DNA of 30,890 nucleotides from a virus. The notes under the pieces are model-generated. The model did no database searches and had not been told where the DNA came from. It was given only the letters and a program-made list of their open reading frames with translations. The stretch lies in the IMG/VR virus record IMGVR_UViG_3300031669_000162, positions 1-30,890 of that record, one strand, 5' to 3'. This document shows, in pieces, positions 24,678 to 27,165 of this stretch (positions are counted from its first letter, which is position 1; the number at the start of each line of letters is the position of its first letter). Position numbers and translations under genes: made by a program.

Positions 24678-25538
24678 CTAGGGTCCCCTTGGTTGCTTGA
24701 GACATTGGATCCAGTATCCGACAGCGTTCTCTTTCGGCTTACCATTGTCAGTACGCTGGGCCATCTCCAGGGTCAGGGCTGGGCGCTCTTTTAGCATGGT
24801 TCGATGGATCGTATTGAGCTGGTCGTCGTCCAGCGGTCGTTGCTGGGCATTGGCCAGATGGCGGACGACCAGCTCTTCTTGCTTGGCTTGGGTGAAGGTA
24901 GTGAAGCCGGGTGGAGGTGGTGGCGCCCGGTTGTTGTGGTCAGTCTGGTCAGATTGATCAGAAGGAATTGATCGAAGATCAGAATCAGATGGGGGTGTGT
25001 ACAGGTAGCGGCGGATGTGCTGGAGGCCTGGGGAGGTGGGGGTGTCACGTTCTGCGTCTGAATCTGATTCTGATTCTGTATCTGTATCTGAATCTGAATC
25101 TGACTCTGTATCTGACTCTGAGGGCGTTACGGGTTGTGACGCCCTCGTTACATCCTCGTTACGCTTGCGTGCCCGATGGTTAGCTACTCGTTGCCTCACC
25201 GCCTCCCGTTGCTGTGATGGTGGCCGGGCCTGCCGCCTGGCATAGTTGGTGATGAACAGCACACCATCTTGCTCGTACAGCATTGCCTTTTCATTCTCGC
25301 CAATCGGACGCGAGAAGAGAGCCACTGCCTCGGTGAACTCCCCTAGATCGCAACGTATGGCCCAGGCAGTATCCTCAATCGAGTAGAGCTCCCCCGTCTC
25401 GCTGCCGTCGCCACTGCGGATGTCATTCTTCCCAGCCAGTATGAGAAGCGCAGACCAGATCCCCTTCTGCGCCCAGGTGAAGGGCCGCATCTTGGGGTCG
25501 TCATTGAGCTCGGTGTAGAGCTTGACCCACGTCTTCAC
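24678..25538 (-). CDS. Replisome-organizer-like replication protein with Ser-Asp tract
   Basis: 286 residues from a GTG overlapping the previous stop (GTGA). Residues 1-105 carry MKTWVKLYTELNDDPKMRPF, QKGIWSALLILAGKND, YSIEDTAWAIRCDLGEF and LFITNYARRQARPP, the layout of phage replisome-organizer N-terminal winged helices that bind origin DNA or load helicase. A basic run follows (REAVRQRVANHRARKR, 111-126), then a Ser/Asp/Glu/Thr stretch at ~140-163, a Pro-rich linker and a C-terminal helical module (TLEMAQRTDNGKPKENAVGY) like DnaD-type ends. The linker could be a flexible tether. Helicase loading is inferred from the family. No DnaB-like helicase is in this window. Confidence 0.65.
   Translation of the reverse strand: MKTWVKLYTELNDDPKMRPFTWAQKGIWSALLILAGKNDIRSGDGSETGELYSIEDTAWAIRCDLGEFTEAVALFSRPIGENEKAMLYEQDGVLFITNYARRQARPPSQQREAVRQRVANHRARKRNEDVTRASQPVTPSESDTESDSDSDTDTESESDSDAERDTPTSPGLQHIRRYLYTPPSDSDLRSIPSDQSDQTDHNNRAPPPPPGFTTFTQAKQEELVVRHLANAQQRPLDDDQLNTIHRTMLKERPALTLEMAQRTDNGKPKENAVGYWIQCLKQPRGP
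25056..25121. repeat. TCTGNN hexanucleotide repeat in the replication gene
   Basis: About eleven hexamer units of the form TCTGAA/TCTGAT/TCTGTA/TCTGAC encode the alternating Ser-Asp/Glu/Thr stretch of the replication protein. Length changes by whole units keep the frame. Confidence 0.85.
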
Positions 25539-26334: not shown

Positions 26335-27165
26335 TCACAGCGCCATCTCCCCTTGCTCCACCGCCAGGATGCGCCGCCCGATCCACTCAGCCACTTGCGG
26401 CACTACAGCGTTTCCGAGGCACCTAAGTCTGTCCACCCTGGAGGGAATCCCATCAGCCACTCGACCCACATCGGGTTCAGCTGCCCACCAAGTGGTTTCT
26501 CTTCCCCCGTTGCTATCTGCGCCAGGGTTGGTCGGAATCCCTTGCTGGAATATCCCTCGACTTTTGTGCCCCGTGGTGTGGGCCACAATCCCGTCTTGGC
26601 CATTGCATGAAGTCTCTTGGCTGGCCCCCATTTCTTGATGTTCGCGTTCTTGTTCGGGCCTGGATGTGCGGACGGAGTGGGCAACGATGAAAACCCTGTA
26701 ACGGAGGTGCGGGGCACCGAAGGCTGCTGCTGGTATGCAATCCCATTCCGCATCATACCCGCTCTCGGCCAGGTCTCGGAGTACCGTTCCCATTCCCCCT
26801 CCAGAGTCAATTGATAGCAACCCTGGTACGTTTTCAGCCAGCACCCATTTGGGTCTAAGCTCGCGAATGATCCGCGCGAACTCGTACCATAGCCCCGTCC
26901 GCGTGTCCTTCTTGAGACCCTTGCGCTTGCCCGCGTAACTGACATCCTGGCAGGGGAATCCTCCGCAAATAAGGTCAACTGGCTCAAGGTTGTGCAGTCC
27001 GCATTCTCTGACATCTCCGTACCTCGCCACGTTCGGCCAGTGCTTCCCCAGCACCTTCAGGCAGTAGTCATTTATCTCCACCTGCCATTCACAGGTCATC
27101 CCCGCGCATTCCAGGCCAAGGTCGATGCCGCCGATGCCCACGAAGAGCGAGCCGAAGGTCAACAT
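26335..27165 (-). CDS. dcm: DNA (cytosine-5-)-methyltransferase
   Basis: 276 residues from ATG 27165, with GAGGGA upstream. Motif I is FGSLFVGIGGIDLGLECAG (residues 4-22). Motif IV is GGFPCQDVSYAG, with catalytic Cys72. Motif VI is LAENVPGLL (Glu111-Asn-Val), motif VIII is PHLRYRVFIVAHS, and motif X is LGNAVVPQVAEWIGRR near residue 250. The order and length fit small phage orphan C5-methylases, which modify cytosine in a short DNA site and protect against restriction. The region between motifs VIII and X is variable and low in conserved residues; its specificity cannot be read. No restriction partner lies in the window. Residues 51-254 share their DNA with a second open frame. Confidence 0.92.
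   Translation of the reverse strand: MLTFGSLFVGIGGIDLGLECAGMTCEWQVEINDYCLKVLGKHWPNVARYGDVRECGLHNLEPVDLICGGFPCQDVSYAGKRKGLKKDTRTGLWYEFARIIRELRPKWVLAENVPGLLSIDSGGGMGTVLRDLAESGYDAEWDCIPAAAFGAPHLRYRVFIVAHSVRTSRPEQEREHQEMGASQETSCNGQDGIVAHTTGHKSRGIFQQGIPTNPGADSNGGRETTWWAAEPDVGRVADGIPSRVDRLRCLGNAVVPQVAEWIGRRILAVEQGEMAL
26403..27014 (-). CDS. Overlapping alternate-frame ORF inside dcm (candidate gene)
   Basis: A 203-residue frame on the same strand, shifted +1 from dcm, lies wholly inside it. ATG 27014 has GAGG 7 nt upstream. It does not read like random shadow: residues 79-94 are SETWPRAGMMRNGIAY, there are LPTPS (111-115) and GLWPTPRGT (142-150), and it ends LNPMWVEWLMGFPPGWT (179-195) before ETL and stop. 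From memory these phrases occur in uncharacterised phage proteins encoded next to or within methylase genes. The dcm motif-X region GIPSRVDRL reads GFPPGWTDL in this frame. Function unknown; a methylase partner or anti-restriction helper is possible. No ribosome-level proof exists in the sequence. Confidence 0.5.
   Translation of the reverse strand: MSENADCTTLSQLTLFAEDSPARMSVTRASARVSRRTRGRGYGTSSRGSFASLDPNGCWLKTYQGCYQLTLEGEWERYSETWPRAGMMRNGIAYQQQPSVPRTSVTGFSSLPTPSAHPGPNKNANIKKWGPAKRLHAMAKTGLWPTPRGTKVEGYSSKGFRPTLAQIATGEEKPLGGQLNPMWVEWLMGFPPGWTDLGASETL

Follow-up and report, generated by a model that had tools for sequence, protein, structure and literature searches.

The window analyzed here, which is the whole stretch of DNA under study, is a virus record of 30.9 kb (IMGVR_UViG_3300031669_000162, positions 1-30,890) that also encodes a major head protein, a terminase, and a DnaD-like replication protein. 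The DnaD-like protein (24678-25538, minus strand) contains an acidic Ser-Asp-Glu repeat, ESDTESDSDSDTDTESESDSDAE, at 25015-25138, and the ATPase encoded at 28533-29816 matches phrog_1366, a family of unknown function (E 1e-79), and weakly resembles a UvsX-like recombinase. The locus of interest consists of a dcm reading frame, encoding a chain termed alpha, and a second open reading frame that is offset by +1, lies entirely within the first, and encodes a chain termed beta. The features of the locus, with the evidence for each, are as follows.

26335-27165, minus strand: alpha, the dcm frame, 276 codons; PF00145 match (E 2e-51) and an AlphaFold model resembling the M.HhaI catalytic domain. Motifs I-VIII occupy residues 1 to about 165, a readable linker, disordered in the model, about 170-245, and motif X 246-268.
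26403-27014, minus strand: beta, the +1 frame, 203 codons from an ATG; phrog_1008 match (E 3e-33), with stop depletion and a codon-phase switch in relatives. It is composed of a conserved core, two WPTP-type cassettes, and a putative motif IX.
27022-27025, minus strand: GAGG, probable Shine-Dalgarno sequence of beta; read from the sequence, with Shine-Dalgarno-preceded starts enriched in the family.
26944-26964, minus strand: alpha motif IV, GGFPCQD, with the catalytic Cys; read from the sequence, invariant in the alignment of relatives.
26680-26718, minus strand: alpha motif VIII region, GAPHLRYRVFIVA; read from the sequence, conserved in the alignment of relatives.
26691-26876, minus strand: conserved core of beta, residues 47-108, including SETWPRAGMMRNGIAY; profile score of 93.8 bits versus 39.2 for alpha-synonymous shuffles, 31 of 31 loci.
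26586-26684, minus strand: beta cassette 1, LPTPSAHPG..., residues 111-143; alignment position and cassette families.
26487-26585, minus strand: beta cassette 2, WPTPRGTKV..., residues 144-176; alignment position and cassette families.
26430-26486, minus strand: motif IX equivalent in beta, GQLNPMWVEWLMGFPPGWT, residues 177-195; near-invariant columns, absence from the alpha frame, and beta codon phase.
26362-26430, minus strand: alpha motif X, RLRCLGNAVVPQVAEWIGRRI; conserved, alpha codon phase resumes, folded in the model.

The landmarks from which a sequence-only reading had proposed overprinting at this locus are all present: motifs IV, VI, VIII, and X in the dcm frame (motif I is found as well), a 203-codon +1 frame without a stop, a plausible ribosome site in the form of the GAGG that ends 7 nt upstream of the beta ATG, the quoted phrases including GLWPTPRGT, and dcm VAHS/VAHT segments that read LPTP and WPTP in the second frame. 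One assignment has to be moved, as GFPPGWTDL, formerly placed in the motif-X region, stands at the place of motif IX just upstream of motif X, and this position is the key to the identity of beta.

Alpha carries motifs I, IV (GGFPCQD), VI (ENV), VIII, and X (GNAVVPQ), the last near its end, and its matches to PF00145 and TIGR00675 cover only residues 3-178. In the AlphaFold prediction, made from a 66-sequence alignment, the top PDB match is 2uz4 (1.8 A over 163 columns), which corresponds to the M.HhaI catalytic domain; motif X is also folded, and residues from about 170 to 245 are of low confidence and mostly unstructured. In the model, this disordered stretch sits where a recognition domain would be expected. 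The motif IX pattern has no occurrence in the alpha frame across the loci of the relatives. The layout of a monomeric Dcm, with motifs I-X and the recognition domain in one chain, is thus not found in alpha, given the missing motif IX and the restricted PF00145 match.

The end of beta, LNPMWVEWLMGFPPGW, is a motif-IX-like element missing from alpha. It has the form and place of an m5C motif IX (that of M.HhaI is LTPRECARVMGYP), and motif X in the alpha frame comes directly after it. The C-terminal part of beta, GQLNPMWVEWLMGFPPGWTDL, is near-invariant in the alignment of relatives, as is LNPxWVEWLMGFPxGW at the motif IX position, and the motif IX pattern occurs in the beta frame of most loci. 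By pattern and position, therefore, beta appears to carry motif IX. Comparison of the beta profile with those of four monomeric methyltransferases gave no significant match, and searches of Pfam, NCBIfam, and PDB sequences with beta gave none; beta does match phrog_1008 and 122 phage records. Its structural model is weak (mean pLDDT 61) and places a helix at the motif IX position. In a complex with alpha, beta is predicted to sit at the site of the M.HhaI small domain, and NPMWVEWLMGFP would form its motif IX helix.

Relatives were gathered twice, 80 viral loci by similarity to beta and 80 by similarity to alpha. Nearly all of them have an uninterrupted +1 frame of 150-350 codons across dcm and a closed +2 frame. 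The strict stop test was restricted to loci picked by alpha only, and synonymous codons were shuffled within the alpha protein. Over 74 such viral loci, 5 stops were seen in the +1 frame versus 210.9 expected, a depletion of about 40-fold, and 555 versus 561 expected in the +2 frame. The depletion holds over motifs IV-VIII (4 versus 94.8 expected) and from motif VIII to IX (1 versus 67.7), and in the window alone no stop lies between motif IV and motif IX versus 3.9 expected from dcm-synonymous shuffles (P = 0.007). Five single-chain phage enzymes show no +1 stop depletion past motif VIII. In two loci with a single-frame or divergent Dcm (L170:1504-2742 and L176:1489-2526), the +1 frame is unusually open over motifs IV-VIII (0 stops in each versus 2.7 and 2.0; P 0.012 and 0.038), with no excess openness after motif VIII; this may be the relic of a nested ancestor or chance.

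A codon-phase test used 29 disjoint pairs of relatives and sorted the differences within them by position in the alpha codon. At the gene start, the rates at positions 1, 2, and 3 follow the usual alpha-frame pattern (0.11, 0.07, 0.38). They are 0.16, 0.09, and 0.26 in the final part of motifs IV-VIII, 0.30, 0.15, and 0.14 in the variable region, 0.18, 0.06, and 0.10 over motif IX, and 0.08, 0.03, and 0.33 from motif X to the gene end. Since alpha position 1 is beta position 3, beta takes over from alpha as the selected frame in the variable region and at motif IX, and from motif X onward selection is on alpha again. Among the individual pairs, 26 of 26 show the alpha pattern for motifs I-VIII, and 27 of 29 show the beta pattern for the variable region plus motif IX. 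Profile scores agree with this division: beta residues 109-198 score 77.9 bits versus 6.9 for alpha-synonymous shuffles, and both the core and the variable region of the real beta score above every shuffle in each of 31 held-out loci.

These results bear on the possibility that beta is an echo, looking protein-like only because the conserved dcm frame keeps its shifted reading conserved and open. An echo of some strength does exist, as alpha-synonymous shuffles still give 39 bits for beta residues 47-108 and 34 bits for residues 15-46, and the +1 frame of some monomeric phage enzymes is open over motifs IV-VIII. It does not account for the stop depletion against shuffles that preserve the alpha protein, the beta-type codon phase of the variable region and motif IX, the advantage of the real beta over all shuffles in 31 of 31 loci, or the beta homologs that lie outside any overlap. 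The echo explanation is rejected for the core, cassettes, and motif IX by the shuffles and the codon phase, and its probability is close to negligible; the exception is beta residues 15-46, which barely exceed the echo. The second frame is a real, selected gene. The original proposal of two coding, overprinted frames is borne out by the near absence of +1 stops in close dcm relatives and by the codon-phase switches, as is its expectation of suppressed third-position change in the dcm frame. That proposal, however, had extended selection in two frames over about 610 bp, and although both frames are selected, strong simultaneous selection is confined to motifs V-VIII, on which the beta core (residues 47-108) is overprinted. 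In the variable region and at motif IX, it is the beta frame that dominates, the alpha frame being mainly kept open.

An in-frame ATG is present 5' of the beta core in 88% of 111 loci versus 47% of synonymous shuffles, and an ATG with a Shine-Dalgarno sequence in 52% versus 19%. This enrichment favors independent initiation of beta over programmed frameshifting, and beta is presumably translated separately. A programmed +1 frameshift near motif VIII would instead yield one long chain with motifs I-VIII, the variable region, and motif IX, and beta would not be translated alone. The frame offset and the order of the parts are compatible with such an event, and methyltransferase genes are among the frameshift-bearing genes of other phages (PMC10885494). 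The product, however, would be devoid of motif X, and the open, selected part of beta begins well before motif VIII, which a shift would not require; beta is, moreover, a separate gene in split relatives. Frameshifting is accordingly considered quite improbable as an explanation of the locus.

In the split relatives the two parts are encoded by separate genes, which do not overlap in Inventum (gp68/gp69) and Abidatro (gp40/gp41) and overlap by 23 nt in Taquarus (gp78/77), 101 nt in DarthPhader (gp80/79), and 209 nt in Firecracker (gp6/gp5). The second gene of these pairs encodes cassettes, motif IX, and motif X, and the partner methylase has motifs I-VIII only. The profile of the nested beta recognizes all five split betas (E 4e-26 to 5e-6; profile-profile E 1.4e-11), so beta has homologs outside any overlap, including genes that do not overlap dcm at all. 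The locus L127:2453-3515, in which alpha ends early and the beta frame runs on past motif IX into a tail of alpha type that includes motif X, looks like a duplication of motifs IX-X and may show how a nested gene pair can turn into a split one. Every frame of L136:2207-3578 switches past a C-rich run (PPPPG), which is probably a one-base length change or an assembly error.

The split genes also bear on another reading, in which alpha would be active by itself and beta would have an accessory role of its own, such as anti-restriction or regulation. A beta without a family match, and an alpha that by itself holds the catalytic motifs and motif X, could be read in this way. Against it, no locus has a motif IX in alpha, which is disordered at the place of the recognition domain, and the betas of Firecracker, Taquarus, Inventum, and Abidatro also bear motif X, which makes beta part of the enzyme. 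Moreover, no beta without alpha was found among 160 viral and 80 genome loci. We regard the accessory role as highly improbable, and the free-standing anti-restriction protein suggested by the sequence-only reading is not supported; its other suggestion, a methylase partner, fits a beta that would supply the variable region and motif IX and that is homologous to split methyltransferase genes.

Beta lies at +1 of alpha in 160 of 160 viral loci and 79 of 80 loci of prokaryotic genomes; as the loci were picked by similarity to alpha or beta, these counts are not a survey of all Dcm genes. The one exception (L213), an apparent alpha-beta fusion, was rejected as a frameshifted metagenome contig. 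A scan of prokaryotic genomes with a single pattern found 403 relatives. The records inspected usually annotate one frame, mostly alpha, and the beta frame is annotated in Virus Rctr197k and Microcystis phage Mwe-JY08. In two cases (L006:1743-2423 and L002:392-652), public records call the beta frame a hypothetical protein and omit the catalytic alpha frame. No description of a phage family of nested alpha/beta genes was found in the literature searched.

The stretch of beta that leads from the conserved core to motif IX holds cassette units that start with [LWF]xTP and are spaced by about 35 residues; their number is mostly 1-5, with a maximum of 8. Thirty-six cassette families recur in at least four loci, several of them at differing positions and beside differing partners. 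The longest beta (L155:588-2438) has up to ten WPTP-like cassettes by eye and eight by pattern, followed by motif IX, and the alpha frame of that locus is open throughout the cassettes, with 617 codons. The cassettes are interchangeable and are predicted to be target-recognizing units because of their analogy with the multispecific enzymes of B. subtilis phages (cited in PMC8936443). A more specific proposal, which we make tentatively and judge to fall a little short of an even chance, is that each unit of about 35 residues is one target-recognizing module, and that phages swap and multiply these modules in the second frame as the alpha frame stays open throughout so that motif X is reached. 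If this were true, it would constitute a widespread two-frame modular specificity system, and the recognition domain of M.EcoHK31I-type enzymes would seem to have been assigned to the wrong chain.

Very probably, the locus encodes a DNA (cytosine-5) methyltransferase of the M.EcoHK31I type whose two polypeptides are nested in one gene, which would make it a variant of an enzyme class that is known but seldom noticed. Alpha would provide the catalytic domain (motifs I-VIII), then a readable and mostly unselected linker, and then motif X; beta, starting inside alpha at +1, would provide a variable target-recognizing part and motif IX. We infer that the two chains form a heterodimer in which beta recognizes the target, and that they would associate into one active enzyme whose predicted role is most likely to shield phage DNA from host restriction. 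Rather than adding a further protein to an already complete Dcm, the second frame would supply what the enzyme otherwise lacks, namely its variable region and motif IX. Long same-strand overlaps with selection demonstrated in both frames are rarely proven, and the nested arrangement would explain the many phage Dcm genes without a recognition domain and motif IX. The annotated frame, when cloned alone, should yield an inactive enzyme, and the evolution of split and nested methyltransferases, together with changes of specificity by cassette exchange, becomes directly testable.

Several known systems share parts of this arrangement. In M.EcoHK31I the small chain is likewise encoded within the large one, in a different frame. 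M.EcoHK31I, a two-polypeptide m5C methyltransferase of YGGCCR, has motifs I-VIII and X in its large polypeptide, and its small polypeptide bears motif IX (PMC3404938); the window has the same split, the likeness being one of motif layout. The same source assigns the recognition domain of M.EcoHK31I to the large chain; in contrast, the variable region of the window changes as part of the beta frame and is built of arrayed cassettes, and its counterpart in alpha is disordered in the model. The monomeric phage m5C methyltransferases (IPP53, Javan374, SPR, Roth22) share the catalytic domain; they differ in having motifs I-X in one frame, with +1 stops past motif VIII at the expected number. In the multispecific methyltransferases of B. 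subtilis phages (SPR, phi3T, SPbeta), several short recognition units stand in tandem between motifs VIII and IX (cited in PMC8936443). These units, of about 40 residues, are the suggested analogy for the beta cassettes, although they belong to a single chain and a single frame. The ShiLan element, an out-of-frame HNH homing endonuclease inserted in a phage methylase (PMC11855218), also places an alternative frame within a phage methylase gene; the window contains no such insertion, and its second frame would encode part of the enzyme. An insertion of the ShiLan type was rejected, as the beta-frame protein matches no nuclease family and the +1 arrangement is universal among relatives and not patchy.

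M.AquI (CYCGRG) and the split phage methylases of Firecracker, Taquarus, Inventum, and Abidatro likewise consist of two chains, with motifs I-VIII in one and the recognition part and motif IX in the other, and the split phage betas are homologous to that of the window. In M.AquI, one chain has motifs I-VIII and the other IX-X (PMC3404938), and motif X is in the second chain of the split phage methylases as well. Some of the split gene pairs are free of overlap and the others share no more than 209 nt; in the window, by contrast, beta is fully nested and ends after motif IX, and motif X belongs to alpha. By this comparison, the window would operate in the manner of M.EcoHK31I, and the split phage genes in that of M.AquI.
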